Source: Coriobacteriales bacterium (GTDB lineage Bacteria > Actinomycetota > Coriobacteriia > Coriobacteriales > UMGS124). Taken from it: a stretch of 46,073 nucleotides of DNA. The stretch lies in assembly GCA_017515595.1 (NCBI GenBank), contig JAFWFL010000100.1, forward strand, positions 1-46,073, in the 5' to 3' direction. A program made the translations under genes and the position numbers. Shown one piece after another: positions 18,319 to 45,814 of this stretch. Numbering within the stretch: position 1 is the stretch's first letter; each line of letters starts with the position of its first letter. The notes beneath the pieces are model-generated. The model searched no databases and was not told where the DNA came from. It saw only the letters and a list, made by a program, of their open reading frames with translations.

Positions 18319-20205
18319 ATGTTAGGATCAACTCGAATGCAAGGTGGCGGTACAGGTAAAGCCAGACCTTTATCTCAGAAGTGCCGGGTGATTCTCGCAG
18401 CATTTCTGGCTTCTTTGGCGCTTGCTGCCGCGGTTTTCTCGCCTGCTTTATTGGCTCAGGCTGCCGAGAACGGACTCAAGGGGTTATCGACCTTTTGGGA
18501 TTCCCAGACTCAGGAATCGCCGGACGGCGAACCTTCAACGCTCCCGGGCGGAGGCGCCGGGTCAGACAATCTCCCTGACAGCCAGTATAATACAATACCC
18601 CAGCTTACAAGCGATGATATTCTCCGCATGAACCATGGCAACGTTACGATGCTCTACACAAACGGGTATCTCACTTTTTTGCAGGGCACATTCTATGACG
18701 GAGAGGTAACCAACGTCGAGGAAGGCATTGAGGCGCTTTTGGGCATTGCTTCTCTTGTGGGCCTCAGCAAAGGTTCAGAGTTTTATGGGGTTTACGGAGA
18801 TACCAACTCTTACGGGTACACAGTCTATACCCTGAAGCAGCGCTATGGCGACATTACCATCAAAGATGCAATTCTCAAGATTGTTGTGGGACCTGACAAC
18901 CATACGGCCGGTCTCGTGAGCTCGTTCACGCCAAATGTTGGCATTGCTCCCGCGAGCGAGGAGACTTCTATTTCTGCAAGCGACGCAGAAGCCGTTGTTC
19001 AAAGGAAGTATAAAAGGCGCGAACTGACGTTTTACTCTGAATATACCAGGCAGACCTCAGTAACCATTGCCAATGTCGCTTACCATGCGTGGGCTGTTTT
19101 TACGAGCTATCCTAATGATATTACCGCTCCTGAAGGCCACAACTATCTTGAGCACATCATTGGATACGACGGCTCCTACCTTATGAATGTGCCGGTTACT
19201 TCGCCCGAGGAGATTATTCTTGGTGACAATGCCATCACCGAGCAGGCGCTTGCCTGGTTTGACGGCATGGAGCCCGCTACCTATACCGGAACGGTCACGC
19301 TCCATGACGGAACCACAAAAGAAATCACCGTACCCGTGGTTCGCGACGCAAACGGCACCTATTACCTCGCCGATGCTTCTCGGCATATCCTTCTTGCTGA
19401 TTGTTATTCTTATCTTTACCGCACAAACATTGTGCCTTGGACCTCGCAGGACAATACCGGCTGGCCAAACCATTACCTCATCACATATAACACGTATATC
19501 CAGGTATACGACCTCTTTGCCGCCCGCGGGCAGGTTTCTGTCGACGGCTTTGGCGCTCCCATTCTCATTCTCACCAATCTCTGCGACTCAAACCGCAATC
19601 CCGTAAACAATGCAAACTACATGGGCATGAGCGGCGGCTGGGCGCTGTTTGGCGCGAGCGAGATCAATGATTACGGCGAGTGCATTGACGTCGCAGCTCA
19701 TGAATACACTCACGGAATCTCCGAGTACTCTCGCGGCGGCGATATTTATCAAAACGAGACAGGCGCCATTAACGAGGCTTTGAGCGACATCATGGGCAAC
19801 ATTTGCCAGTACCTGAGCGGCGACACCACTGATACCGAGTGGCTTATTGCCGAGAGGAGCGGCGTTACCCTGCGCAGCATGAGCTTCCCCTGGCTGTATC
19901 ATAAACCGGTCACCATTGGCGGCAAGTATTATATTGAACCCACAGATTCGCCCGATATTGACAACGACCTTGGCGGCGTCCACAGCAACAGCCTCCTTTT
20001 GGGCAATGTGGCCTGGCGTCTTATAGACAGCGGCATGGACCCTGAAGAGGCGTTTAGCCTTTGGATGGACGTCATCAGGCTCATTACGCCGTACTCGGGG
20101 CTTCGCGAAATACACGCCGCGCTCCTTTTTGCCGCCGAGATGCACAATCTCGACATTGAGTGGTTTGGTTTGATAGACATGTATTGTGAACAGGCAGGTT
20201 TTTAA
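18319..20205 (+). CDS. Secreted M4-family (thermolysin-like) zinc metalloprotease
   Basis: Exported neutral protease, 628 residues from ATG 18319 (GAGGGGG just upstream); an ATG at 18292 is an alternative. A signal peptide (LAAFLASLALAAAVFSPALL) is followed by an inhibitory prodomain of FTP/PepSY type (YTLKQRYGDITIKDAILKIV). The catalytic domain has HEYTH (about residue 461) and the third zinc ligand in NEALSDIMGN. The expected active-site histidine near the C-terminus is plausible in GGVHSNSLLLGN. No wall anchor is seen, so it should be released. It probably shares a transcript with the secreted protein 27 bases downstream. Confidence 0.88.
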   Translation: MLGSTRMQGGGTGKARPLSQKCRVILAAFLASLALAAAVFSPALLAQAAENGLKGLSTFWDSQTQESPDGEPSTLPGGGAGSDNLPDSQYNTIPQLTSDDILRMNHGNVTMLYTNGYLTFLQGTFYDGEVTNVEEGIEALLGIASLVGLSKGSEFYGVYGDTNSYGYTVYTLKQRYGDITIKDAILKIVVGPDNHTAGLVSSFTPNVGIAPASEETSISASDAEAVVQRKYKRRELTFYSEYTRQTSVTIANVAYHAWAVFTSYPNDITAPEGHNYLEHIIGYDGSYLMNVPVTSPEEIILGDNAITEQALAWFDGMEPATYTGTVTLHDGTTKEITVPVVRDANGTYYLADASRHILLADCYSYLYRTNIVPWTSQDNTGWPNHYLITYNTYIQVYDLFAARGQVSVDGFGAPILILTNLCDSNRNPVNNANYMGMSGGWALFGASEINDYGECIDVAAHEYTHGISEYSRGGDIYQNETGAINEALSDIMGNICQYLSGDTTDTEWLIAERSGVTLRSMSFPWLYHKPVTIGGKYYIEPTDSPDIDNDLGGVHSNSLLLGNVAWRLIDSGMDPEEAFSLWMDVIRLITPYSGLREIHAALLFAAEMHNLDIEWFGLIDMYCEQAGF

Positions 20206-20232
20206 CGTATCTTAAAAGAACGGAGGAACAGT

Positions 20233-21456
20233 ATGAAAAAAGAATCTGCTTTTAAAGGTTTGGTTGGCAAATGCATGGGAGTGGCGCTCGCGCTCTCTAT
20301 GCTCCTCACCGCCGGCCCGGCTTTGGCAAATGAGGGACTCAACATCAATACCGTGAGCACAACCCAGGGTGCAGGCTTATTCTGGTCTTCTCAGGACAAG
20401 CCAAAGCAAACCGGCGAGGTAGTTGCCCTTGATGACCTTAACATCTCGATCACCGTTGACGAATACACCTCAATTGTCCAGGAAAACGACTTTGTTTATG
20501 TCTACACCAAGCTCGACGGCTATGTGCCTTACGTCATTATTGGCTATTATGATATGACCGTGAGCAAAATGGCAAGTACCTTTACGAGCTACATGAAGGG
20601 CGAATACCCGGATCTTAAAGTCACAGAGCTAAACGAGAAACTCTCGCTTGGCGACAAGAACTGCATAAAGGCAGCCTTTGAGTACAAGGTAAACGGTTAC
20701 ACCTTTGTTGACACCCGTTACTTTGTTGAAATTGGCAAATACACCTATATGTTCGGGTCAAAAGAAGTCCCCGGGAGCGATGATCTGATCCCTGAAGGGT
20801 ATCTCGAAGGAATCGTTAAAAGCGCTGCTATGCTTGCCGGCGGTTACAGCGATTATGCTCTTCATGTAGATAAAGACAAGGGCCTGCAAGGTTCTCAGCC
20901 TGTCTCGACCAGCACTGAGAAGCAGGAGCCTAAGCAGCAGGACCCCGAGCCCAAAAACGAGCCAAAGACTCCCGAACCTCAGGAACCCGAGCCAACCGAT
21001 GAAGGCATGATTATATTTGAAGAAGCCCGCGCCGGTTATGAAGGCGCTTGGGTTACCTTTGGGGACGGATTCCAGCTTTATGTTCCAAAGAACTGGGTAG
21101 AAGTTGAAATTACTGACGAAGAGCTCCAACAGGGCGTTCTTTACTTTGCCTATGAACCTGACCGCCTTGCCGACCCGCCTTTTGTTGAGGTAGATTTCTT
21201 CTACAACAGCGACGGCTTTACCACCGTTGAAGAGATAGCTAACGGCCTTGCAAGTGTTGGTTGCGAGGTTGAAGGCGTTCTCAACGTAAACGGAATGCAT
21301 GTTGCCTCATACGAGAACACAAGTAATGACATTGGCGGTATTATGTTCTTCCATCCCGAGACTACCGACTACATTATTGTTGTTTTAACCGGCTCGTATT
21401 CTGTAAACTATCCTGTTGATGCAACCATTCTCTGCTCGCTGAGCCCGCTTGAGTAA
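20233..21456 (+). CDS. Secreted two-domain protein of unknown function
   Basis: Not recognised as a named family. It has a signal peptide (VALALSMLLTAGPALA, cleavage near residue 33), an N-terminal globular domain (about 55-200), a linker rich in Pro, Glu and Lys (about 222-260), and a C-terminal domain (about 265-407) containing FGDGFQLYVPKNW. That C-terminal domain resembles the small secreted domains of Coriobacteria that read as stress/lipid-binding-like modules; this is only an impression. The mature N-terminus carries GLFWSSQ, close to FWDSQ in the M4 protease just upstream, hinting at a shared sorting or processing signal. The ribosome-binding site CGGAGGA is good. Confidence 0.75.
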   Translation: MKKESAFKGLVGKCMGVALALSMLLTAGPALANEGLNINTVSTTQGAGLFWSSQDKPKQTGEVVALDDLNISITVDEYTSIVQENDFVYVYTKLDGYVPYVIIGYYDMTVSKMASTFTSYMKGEYPDLKVTELNEKLSLGDKNCIKAAFEYKVNGYTFVDTRYFVEIGKYTYMFGSKEVPGSDDLIPEGYLEGIVKSAAMLAGGYSDYALHVDKDKGLQGSQPVSTSTEKQEPKQQDPEPKNEPKTPEPQEPEPTDEGMIIFEEARAGYEGAWVTFGDGFQLYVPKNWVEVEITDEELQQGVLYFAYEPDRLADPPFVEVDFFYNSDGFTTVEEIANGLASVGCEVEGVLNVNGMHVASYENTSNDIGGIMFFHPETTDYIIVVLTGSYSVNYPVDATILCSLSPLE

Positions 21457-42121: not shown

Positions 42122-42234
42122 GCCCACAAGAGCCGATCTTGTGGGCTCGGTGCTTCCCTTCCAGAGTGGTTTTCCTTCGCAAGATTAGGTGGTTTAGGCG
42201 AATTACGTGGTACACATGTTTTATGTGTACCACG
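42122..42234. terminator. Hairpins in the gap after the nucleotidyltransferase-aminotransferase gene
   Basis: Two hairpins are seen: GCCCACAAGA/TCTTGTGGGC (42122-42146) and CGTGGTACACAT/ATGTGTACCACG (42206-42234). The second lies about 30 bases after the minus-strand stop at 42265. The string attacgtggt also recurs inside the gene end (42273), so the second stem is partly built on a local duplication. The rest of 41874-42264 is promoter DNA of the FAD gene. Confidence 0.5.
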
Positions 42235-42264
42235 AGGTTTAGGCGGTTTAGGTTGTTTTCATGG

Positions 42265-44097
42265 TTACGGATTACGTGGTTTACATAGCTGCATAAGCTC
42301 TGCTTTCATTGCTTCCATTAGTGCATTATTGTCGGCCGTGTTCCTTACTGCTATTCGTAAATAATTTCTTCCGTTAGTCTTTGTTGCCAGTTCCTTGACC
42401 AAAATGTTGTGTTTAATCATCAACCGTTTTAGCAAGTCTTTTGGACTTATGCCTTCTTCCAGCTCTATCATAATAAAGTTAGCTTGCGAAGGAATTACGC
42501 GCACACCTGTAATCTTTGCGAGTTCCGCTTGGAATCTCTTTCTTTCTGCGCGGACTTTCTCGAGTGCGACTACATAGTCCTTTTTATACTTCTCTTCGAT
42601 CTGCATGTAGAACTCGGCAAAGGAATTGATGTTCCAAATAGCTACATCCTTCTTCATCTTAGCTATGGTCTCGGTATCACCTGAAGCAAGTACACCAAGA
42701 CGAAGACCCGGAACTCCATAAGATTTTGATATACTTTTCATAACATAAAGGTGTGGATTTGCAGAAAGAACGTCCTGAGTAATCAAAGTGTTGTCTAATT
42801 CATCGGAGAAGTCAGCAAAAGACTCGTCAACAATCAGCTTAATGTTCTTATGCTGAGCCCAATCTATTAAACGACAAAGGCCCGCCTTTGGGATATAGTT
42901 CCCACTGGGATTATCCGGATTAATAAGAATCAGATTGTTTATATCTTTATCCTCAAAATACTCAATCACATCATCAACCGTGTAAGAATAGTCCCAATTA
43001 TCCGGAATAAAATCAACAGAGTTTTCCCGGTCATACCGGTTTGGATACTCTTCAAATGTAGGCCGGATAAATCCTACTTTACCGCTCAAATGACTCAGCA
43101 GACTTTTAATTAATTCTGCAGCGCCGTTACCAACCAGAATATTTTCCTGGTGAACGCTAAAATTCTTAGCCGCCAGAAGACTGTTCACACGCATACCGCT
43201 GGGATACTCCGTTAACAAAATGTCAAAGATTGATTTCAGCTCATCCTTTAACTTCTTTGGCGGGAAATAGGGATTTACCAAATAACAAAAGTCTAGCAGC
43301 TTTGGATATCTCCAATAACCGCCAAATCTGCTCTGAAGCAGCCTTACTCGTTCGTCCTCGTCGGGAGTAAAAATGGACTCCGCAATGTCTAAATCCTGTA
43401 TATCATCAATCTCATACCATCTCTGGCCTTCGAGCCGTTTGGCTTTTATAACAGGTTCATCTAACATGGTAATTACTCGCAGAACCTGTTCATAGTATTC
43501 ATTCTCTCCCAATGCTTCTTGGTAAGCATCAAGAAACGGCACATAGTAATTCTTCGAGAAATGCTTGCTGAACTTGTATATATTTACCGTCTTATAGTAT
43601 TCGCTTATCTCATTAAATTTAAAATGCTTTCCCGGCACAAATGCTTCTATACAATCATCTTCGCTGAGTTTAACGCACGTACCATCCATCCAAGATTCAT
43701 ATTTATCAACAAGAGCTAACGTATCACGAGGATCATTAACCAATGTCTCAAGCACAGCATCCTCAAAGATCAAATCTGACTCAAAGAGTAAGGTATCTTC
43801 CTGACAAAGGAACTCTTTTGCGAGCGCCAGAGAATAAATGTTGTTGGTCTTTTCATATATCGGGTTCTTAATGTATACGATCGGTGTTTTAATATCTAAG
43901 GTGTTGATGTAATCGATGAGTTTTTGACCTTCGTATCCCACCACAATAACGATTCTCGATAAGTGCTGATTCTCGATCTGGTGCAGCATGCGATCAATAA
44001 GCGTTACACCGTTTACCTTAACCATGCACTTTGTATTATTCTTGGTGAGCTCTTTAAGCCGCTTACCCATTCCGGCTGCTAAGATAATCGCTTGCAT
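42265..44097 (-). CDS. Bifunctional nucleotidyltransferase (LicC-like) fused to a PLP-dependent aminotransferase (HisC/CobD-like)
   Basis: A 610-residue fusion. The N-terminal domain (1-245) is a LicC-type NTP transferase: ILAAGMGKRLKEL with signature residues 6-13, the catalytic-metal aspartate region FESDLIF (105-111) and WYEIDDIQDL (227-236). The C-terminal domain (about 265-610) is a class I/II PLP enzyme with NGAAE (324-328), NPDNPSG (393-399), cofactor aspartate in LIVDESF and the PLP lysine in SISKSYG (Lys458). Such fusions could make a CDP-activated amino-alcohol or aminophosphonate head group for a surface glycan or lipid. The ribosome-binding site AAGGAGAGG is good. The exact substrate is unknown. 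Confidence 0.85.
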   Translation of the reverse strand: MQAIILAAGMGKRLKELTKNNTKCMVKVNGVTLIDRMLHQIENQHLSRIVIVVGYEGQKLIDYINTLDIKTPIVYIKNPIYEKTNNIYSLALAKEFLCQEDTLLFESDLIFEDAVLETLVNDPRDTLALVDKYESWMDGTCVKLSEDDCIEAFVPGKHFKFNEISEYYKTVNIYKFSKHFSKNYYVPFLDAYQEALGENEYYEQVLRVITMLDEPVIKAKRLEGQRWYEIDDIQDLDIAESIFTPDEDERVRLLQSRFGGYWRYPKLLDFCYLVNPYFPPKKLKDELKSIFDILLTEYPSGMRVNSLLAAKNFSVHQENILVGNGAAELIKSLLSHLSGKVGFIRPTFEEYPNRYDRENSVDFIPDNWDYSYTVDDVIEYFEDKDINNLILINPDNPSGNYIPKAGLCRLIDWAQHKNIKLIVDESFADFSDELDNTLITQDVLSANPHLYVMKSISKSYGVPGLRLGVLASGDTETIAKMKKDVAIWNINSFAEFYMQIEEKYKKDYVVALEKVRAERKRFQAELAKITGVRVIPSQANFIMIELEEGISPKDLLKRLMIKHNILVKELATKTNGRNYLRIAVRNTADNNALMEAMKAELMQLCKPRNP

Positions 44098-44314: not shown

Positions 44315-44406
44315 ATGGCTTCAGTGACGGCAAAGCTAAGCCATATCAAGTAAAACAAGTGTTACAAGCAATTGAGAGACTGGGATGTAAAAATGACAAT
44401 ACATAG
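44315..44406 (+). pseudogene. HicA-like toxin remnant (frameshifted, truncated)
   Basis: After AGGAGG (44305-44310) an ATG opens a 12-codon frame that stops at 44353. In the +2 frame, SDGKAKPYQVKQVLQAIERLGC reads like the start of a HicA toxin, but it ends at 44406 just where hicB begins. The RNA-binding core and catalytic histidine are missing. It is interpreted as a frameshifted and internally deleted hicA; the match is short. Confidence 0.45.
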
Positions 44407-44719
44407 AGCTGAAGATTATACCTATAGAGTGTTTTGGTCAGAAGAAGATAATGCGTATATTGGCTTAATTGACTAGTTCCGTCCGCTGTCTCATATAGAT
44501 ACCAACCAATTAGATGCATTTACCAGAATAGTGTCTCTTGTTCAAGATGTTATTGATGATATGGAATCAAATGGCGAACAAATACCTATCCCGTTTTCTG
44601 AGCGTACCTATTCAGGACACATTTCGCTACGTATAACACCGGAGCAGCATCGCAGACTCGCTATAGAATCAGCTGAGCAAGGTGTGTCAATCAACCAGCT
44701 TCTCGTTTCGCGAGTATAA
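44393..44719 (+). pseudogene. hicB: HicB-like antitoxin with an in-frame TAG
   Basis: HicB antitoxin of 108 codons with an amber codon at position 28 (44474-44476). The N-terminal part YTYRVFWSEEDNAYIGLI is the HicB partial RNase-H fold. The C-terminal part has IDDMESNGEQIPIPF and the ribbon-helix-helix SGHISLRITPEQHRRL. Homologues usually have Glu-Phe-Pro after the GL motif, so the TAG again looks like GAG to TAG. The piece from 44531 could be translated alone. With the broken hicA it suggests a decayed toxin-antitoxin pair. Confidence 0.7.
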
Positions 44720-44833: not shown

Positions 44834-45814
44834 TTACTCCCCCACCACGCGTTCAAAGAATGTGTCTGGGTGCTGGGGGTCAAATATCTCGTTGGCCCAC
44901 ATTAGTGTTACTAGGTCCTCGGTGTCGCTCAGGTTCGTGATGCTATGCGTGTACCCTGGGAGCATATGCACGGTTTGTATGCACTCTCCTGAGACTTCGA
45001 ACTCTAGCACCTCGTCAGAGCCTATGCGGCGTTCTTGAATGAGCGCGTGTCCCGAGACCACAATAAAGAACTCCCACTTGCTGTTGTGCCAGTGCTGGCC
45101 TTTGGTTATCCCCGGTTTGCTGAAGTTTACCGAGAACTGCTCGTGGTCAGTAGTCTTAAGTAGCTCGGTAAAACTCCCGCGCTCATCGCAATTCATCTTG
45201 AGATCAAACGCAACCTTCTCCGGCGGCAAATACGAGAGATACATCGAGTAAAGCTTCTTCTCAAAGCTTCCGTTAGGTATCGCCGGCATCATAAGATTCA
45301 AAGGCTGGTCATGATATATATTCAGCAACTCAACAATTCTCCCGAGTGTAGCTTTATGAGTCACCGGCGCATAGCAAAAGCGCCCGTTCCCAGAAGGGCA
45401 TGGAGTTAGTCCATCATACTCAACTCCATCAACCACTTCTCCTACACCGGGATACTCGCACTTATGCGGACGTCCTTCCAGTGCGTCATACATTTCTTCA
45501 ATCAGATCATCAATAAACAGCATCTCAAGCTCAACAACAGGATCGTTCACCGTAATAGGCAGATCATGTGCAATGTTGTAACAAAACGTCGCAACCGCCG
45601 AGTTATAGTTAGGTCTCACCCACTTGCCTACTAGATTAGGGAACCGGTACACATACACCGTCGCCCCGCTCTCTTGTGCATACCTAATAAAGAGCTCTTC
45701 TCCATCGCACTTTGACAATCTATACTCAGATGTGCCAAACCTTCCCGCAAGCGTCGCCTGCAGAGAAGAACTGAATATTACAAAATCTGCCTGAGCACAA
45801 TATGGTGGAACGCT
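44834..45814 (-). pseudogene. capF: Truncated CapF-like polysaccharide biosynthesis protein (SDR + cupin)
   Basis: C-terminal part of a CapF-type capsule enzyme: a short-chain dehydrogenase fragment followed by a cupin domain. The frame runs upstream from 44834 through the dehydrogenase strand VIFSSSLQATLAG (about 45750) to near 45814, where homology stops at an IS3 transposase fragment. The cupin part has KGQHWHNSKWEFFIVVSG and HMLPGYTHSITNL with metal-binding histidines. Intact family members are about 370 residues, so roughly 45 N-terminal residues, including the NAD-binding glycines, are lost. A start at TTG 45718 is not supported. Confidence 0.75.

Follow-up and report, generated by a model that had tools for sequence, protein, structure and literature searches.

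An intact fusion of a LicC/PntC-type nucleotidyltransferase with a CobD-like PLP enzyme, a candidate CDP-amino-alcohol synthase of gut and rumen bacteria

Results

A complete fusion gene among degraded neighbours

The window analysed in this work, the whole stretch of 46,073 nucleotides from a Coriobacteriales bacterium (contig JAFWFL010000100.1), carries on its minus strand, at 42265..44097, a complete gene encoding a protein of 610 aa, identified by the ORF call and by Pfam, NCBIfam and PDB matches. The reading frame starts with ATG and has zero internal stops. Residues 1-245 (43363..44097, minus strand) constitute a nucleotidyltransferase (NT) domain of the LicC/PntC type, according to PF12804/PF00483 and to matches with 6pd1 and 1jyk, and residues ~255-605 (42283..43335, minus strand) form a PLP domain of the CobD/SMUL_1544 type, according to TIGR01140, 6oux and Foldseek. 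The Pfam matches themselves cover residues 3-122 (NTP_transf_3/NTP_transferase) and 314-596 (Aminotran_1_2), which agrees with the preliminary description of this DNA, where an NT and a PLP enzyme were proposed to be joined in one polypeptide. The AlphaFold2 model of the fusion had a mean pLDDT of 89.5 and a pTM of 0.83.

That description also placed the gene in a ruined surface-glycan region, a fair account of its neighbours. A WbcJ-type reductase gene at 44834-45718 (minus strand) is truncated at its 5' end and matches positions 199-368 of a 372-position profile, and a small gene at 44393-44719 (plus strand), HicB-like by eye, shows an in-frame stop after 27 codons. From the truncated gene upstream to the end of the contig we observed a broken frame and, by eye, a transposase-like fragment. 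On the other side of the fusion gene lie flavoprotein genes; the window copy is thus an orphan, with neither a LicD nor a reductase gene adjacent to it. Immediately beyond the 3' end of the fusion gene there are direct repeats with a GTTTAGG-type unit (42122-42283) and two perfect short palindromes (42122-42146 and 42206-42234). A promoter and terminator scan gave scores at or below the shuffled background.

The NT half and its pocket

The NT half is, by its sequence, of the LicC/PntC type, with CTP as the putative nucleotide donor. Its solved relatives were the PntC of Treponema denticola (Tde PntC, 6pd1), with E-values of 1.6e-17 for the full protein and 2.7e-17 for the NT half alone, and LicC (1jyk; 1.5e-11 and 7e-13, respectively). 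The GxGxR...K signature of these enzymes and the acidic metal-site residues are present: R13 and K23, equivalent to R15 and K25 of Tde PntC, were found in every row of an alignment of 82 fusions that covers those positions, and E106, S107, D108, W136, E203, E229 and D231 were invariant. D108 aligns with Tde D106, and E229 with LicC E216.

The amine of 2-aminoethylphosphonate (AEP) is held in Tde PntC by Glu104 and Glu196, the corresponding residues of LicC being Asp105 and Asp192 (PMC6697681). E106 (codon at 43780..43782, minus strand) aligns with the amine-contacting Glu104. E203 (codon at 43489..43491, minus strand), selected by alignment and conservation, aligns with LicC D192, and Tde Glu196 falls one column off in the automatic alignment, so that its equivalence to E203 is probable rather than certain. 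As far as the alignment allows us to judge, E106 and probably E203 therefore match the amine-holding Glu pair of Tde PntC.

The PLP half resembles CobD and SMUL_1544

Among the NCBIfam models, the PLP half matched CobD (TIGR01140) best, with 3.8e-51 and 174.2 bits, and HisC second, with 5.6e-43 and 147.2 bits; the curated cut-offs, of 290.55 and 276.55 bits, were not reached in either case. In the PDB the best match was 6oux, entitled 'SMUL_1544, a decarboxylase' (6.9e-44 with the full protein and 2.5e-44 with the PLP half alone), followed by CobD of S. enterica (5.3e-32 and 2.1e-32), and both structures also ranked ahead of HisC in the single-domain Foldseek matches. At the residue level, F427 is the Phe of a 'DESF' motif where HisC has a Tyr (DEAY), and W488-N489-I490-N491 ('WNIN') is as in CobD and SMUL_1544, the motif of HisC at this place being 'YNVS'. 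On these two signatures, together with the score under its cut-off, we rejected membership of the HisC family. No class V AEP transaminase was found in the PLP half, Aminotran_1_2 being its sole aminotransferase-class Pfam match. The type of PLP enzyme, which the preliminary description had left to be compared, is thus CobD/SMUL_1544-like by Pfam, PDB and Foldseek matches, and not class V.

K458 (codon at 42724..42726, minus strand), which aligns with the PLP-binding Lys of CobD, was retained in 79 of the 82 aligned fusions. In the three exceptions, at loci L050, L080 and L081, the position is occupied by Glu or Gln, and their PLP half may therefore be inactive. In the window copy K458 is kept, as are K23, E106, D108, E203 and E229 of the NT domain, so both motif sets are indeed intact, as first described. 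Judged by sequence, then, the PLP half has CobD-type signatures and the PLP lysine, yet it scores below the CobD model cut-off. A further difference is K568, present in 80 of the 82 fusions, where CobD (in its 'ILIR' motif) and SMUL_1544 have an Arg; this replacement implies that the ligand may differ.

SMUL_1544 of Sulfurospirillum multivorans (6OUX) is the closest solved PLP domain and has the CYL-NPY, YPS, DESF and WNIN motifs in common with the fusion; unlike the latter, it is unfused and encoded in a norcobamide operon. CobD, the L-threonine-O-3-phosphate decarboxylase (1LC5), has the same fold and signatures, but it is a stand-alone enzyme of the cobamide pathway and a more distant relative.

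The fusion is a conserved family linked to surface-glycan genes

By tblastn in GTDB genome contigs we confirmed at least 501 stretches encoding the fusion, 80 loci of which were kept for analysis. The fusion is a conserved family and not a local accident, since full-length relatives with ~41-82% identity occur in many genomes. It was present in 4 of the 59 relatives examined, all from the same order and with 58-63% identity, and a sample of 299 genomes from the family to which Butyrivibrio sp. AE3009 belongs contained 32 with the fusion. Many bacteria of the gut and rumen encode it beside surface-glycan genes. Our literature search found no paper on this fusion and no described function for it.

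Neighbouring gene families were clustered, labelled by Pfam and scored within three genes of the 80 fusions. A LicD or a CDP-glycerol-type glycerophosphotransferase (Glyphos_transf) gene was found at this distance in 47 of the 80 loci, an octopine-dehydrogenase-like (OctDH, PF02317) or OCD/mu-crystallin (OCD, PF02423) gene in 35, and a methyltransferase gene in 5; at 22 loci none of the scored neighbours was present, and some contigs are short. A cobamide role is not supported because the scored neighbours are glycan genes rather than cob genes. A conserved Amidohydro_3 (PF07969) gene accompanies the reductase or LicD gene at six loci (L012, L018, L027, L059, L086 and L087).

No more than 150 bp separate most of the reductase genes (33 of 38) from the fusion gene, and several overlap it by 4 bp. 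In the tree of the fusions, in which internal support was moderate, OctDH and OCD genes swap between close relatives (L045/L049 and L046/L047). This alternation of two unrelated families at the same place suggests that they do the same job, the N-alkylation of an amine. Among the 299 genomes, the OctDH and OCD subfamilies occurred in 12, never both together, and 9 of these 12 have the fusion against a background of 32/299 (hypergeometric P ~1e-7, ignoring kinship); in all nine, the reductase gene is on the fusion's contig, within ~3.5 kb. The nearest relatives of the OctDH partners were octopine dehydrogenase (3c7a, 2.6e-36) and N-(1-D-carboxyethyl)-L-norvaline dehydrogenase; they match PF02317 and keep the positions of His212, Arg324 and Asp329 of octopine dehydrogenase, which we take to be its catalytic residues. 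The OCD partners were nearest to imine reductases, including pyrroline-2-carboxylate reductase, and to 4m54.

One fusion-free locus (L118, 4000-11238, plus strand) is a split operon with the order Glyphos, LicD, NT, LicD, OctDH, PLP, LicD. Its PLP enzyme is HisC-like, not CobD-like, which would fit a transaminated precursor, e.g. serinol phosphate.

Possible partners elsewhere in the genome

The preliminary description recommended a search for choline-glycan genes elsewhere in the genome, and such genes are there. Four LicD matches exceeded the cut-off and a fifth was weak; on contig C26, LicD is accompanied by a LicC-choline-kinase fusion, a further LicC-like gene and a transporter-like gene, and contig C94 contains a second gene that is probably a fusion of the same kind. 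C94 also carries an OCD gene (20107-20937) that was matched with 479 bits by a profile built from the OCDs linked to the fusion; it directly adjoins a LicD-domain gene, with genes for an IspD-like cytidylyltransferase and a zinc alcohol dehydrogenase nearby. The search for OctDH gave no match in this genome, nor in control genomes, and is therefore weak evidence for a true absence; in other genomes the family was detected with an alignment query. The presence of this OCD gene and of LicD elsewhere in the genome implies that the window copy, although an orphan, may have partners in trans, and the C94 OCD may be one of them.

Discussion

On balance, we favour reading the fusion as a bifunctional CDP-amino-alcohol synthase whose substrate and product are inferred, the product being most likely CDP-ethanolamine. 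The C-terminal CobD-like domain would decarboxylate O-phospho-L-serine to phosphoethanolamine, and the N-terminal domain would transfer CMP from CTP to yield CDP-ethanolamine. Phosphoethanolamine is nearly isosteric with AEP. LicD-family or CDP-glycerol-type phosphotransferases would then put the phospho-amine on a surface glycan. The nitrogen is probably modified as well in many relatives, either by an OctDH-like or OCD-like NAD(P) reductase, which might for example condense it reductively with a 2-oxo acid, or more rarely by a methyltransferase; in the genome of the window the C94 OCD gene would take the role of the reductase in trans.

The proposed decarboxylation has a precedent in Campylobacter jejuni, where Cj1436 converts L-Ser-P to ethanolamine-P, a known step towards a glycan precursor (PMC11800397). 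The likeness drawn here concerns the type of reaction, and the Campylobacter product is amide-linked instead of CDP-activated. Phosphoserine as the substrate is open to doubt because of K568, the model scores below the cut-offs and the HisC-like PLP enzyme of the split operon. The three relatives that lack the PLP lysine, the 22 loci devoid of scored neighbours and the isolated window copy also count against the overall reading. The complete picture, in which one fused enzyme makes and CDP-activates phosphoethanolamine or a similar amino-alcohol phosphate that, once N-carboxyalkylated as in opines by either reductase family, LicD attaches to the cell surface, is tentative, and we give it somewhat less than an even chance. 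N-(2-hydroxyethyl)alanine phosphate occurs in Proteus O-antigens; a literature search for this compound in Proteus O-antigens found no paper.

If the PLP domain were instead an aminotransferase, it could, for example, convert dihydroxyacetone phosphate to serinol phosphate, with the NT domain making CDP-serinol or a similar compound. Aminotransferases belong to the same PLP superfamily, serinol phosphate is a known surface-glycan precursor that Campylobacter Cj1437 makes from dihydroxyacetone phosphate (PMC11800397), K568 departs from CobD, and stand-alone HisC-like enzymes occur in related operons, once split with a separate NT and OctDH. However, these stand-alone enzymes score best with HisC, whereas the fused domain has the signatures and scores of CobD/SMUL_1544, and we regard this alternative as unlikely. 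Decarboxylation of O-phospho-L-threonine, which would give CDP-1-amino-2-propanol as the activated group, seems to us distinctly unlikely: CobD, the second-best solved match, does act on threonine phosphate, but SMUL_1544 is closer to the fusion, and a branched amino-alcohol should fit a tight PntC-like pocket less well.

The 82% identity of the window copy to sequences from Clostridia-type MAGs, vs 58-63% to those of its own order, and its low GC content (0.40, in a window of 0.49) suggest a horizontal origin. Synonymous sites were saturated in comparisons with its nearest relatives, which leaves room for an older transfer and precludes both a pairwise dN/dS ratio and a test of the window's own branch; pN was ~0.12, similar in both domains, a value that sums up the entire divergence of the sequences and would also accommodate a very recent loss of use. 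The orphan position, with flavoproteins on one side and a truncated wbcJ-type gene on the other, like the deviating GC content, would fit a decaying leftover; nevertheless, the gene is of full length with its motifs intact, pN is low in both domains while synonymous sites are saturated, and the genome has OCD and LicD genes, all of which makes such decay quite improbable.

The preliminary description had likened the gene to the PntC fusion and allowed for an activated amino-alcohol or an aminophosphonate as the product. The comparison holds for the architecture: PntC-AEPT of T. denticola (Tde1415, 6PD1/6PD2) also has an N-terminal LicC-like cytidylyltransferase, the nearest to our NT domain, fused in the same N-to-C order to a PLP enzyme, and the two proteins share Glu at one of the positions that contact the amine, probably at both. 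It differs in having a class V AEP transaminase where the fusion has a class I/II enzyme of the CobD type. That the fusion is itself an AEP cytidylyltransferase-transaminase of this kind is highly improbable, and we reject its membership of that family by the PLP type and the missing PEP mutase, of which none was found in the window's own genome (97.7% complete) and which scored above the cut-off in just 8 of the 50 genomes with the fusion; 6pd1/6pd2 were the top whole-chain Foldseek matches, but with a TM-score of only ~0.39, a rank that rests on domain order. The aminophosphonate proposal is thus not supported, whereas fused activation of an amino-alcohol is supported.

Activation of the LicC/PntC type is known. 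In the Lic-1 phosphocholine pathway, LicC and LicC-choline kinase fusions likewise feed LicD by CTP-dependent activation, although a choline kinase is used there and LicC has Asp at both pocket positions. What is possibly new is the fusion with a CobD-type PLP half and its unusual potential product. If our reading is true, the fusion would represent a third source of CDP-amino-alcohols for bacterial surfaces, beside LicA-LicC choline salvage and Ppm-PntC phosphonates, in which the amino-alcohol would be made from serine and host choline would not be needed. Furthermore, its opine-type reductase partners predict that common bacteria of the gut and rumen display an unusual charged group on their surface.
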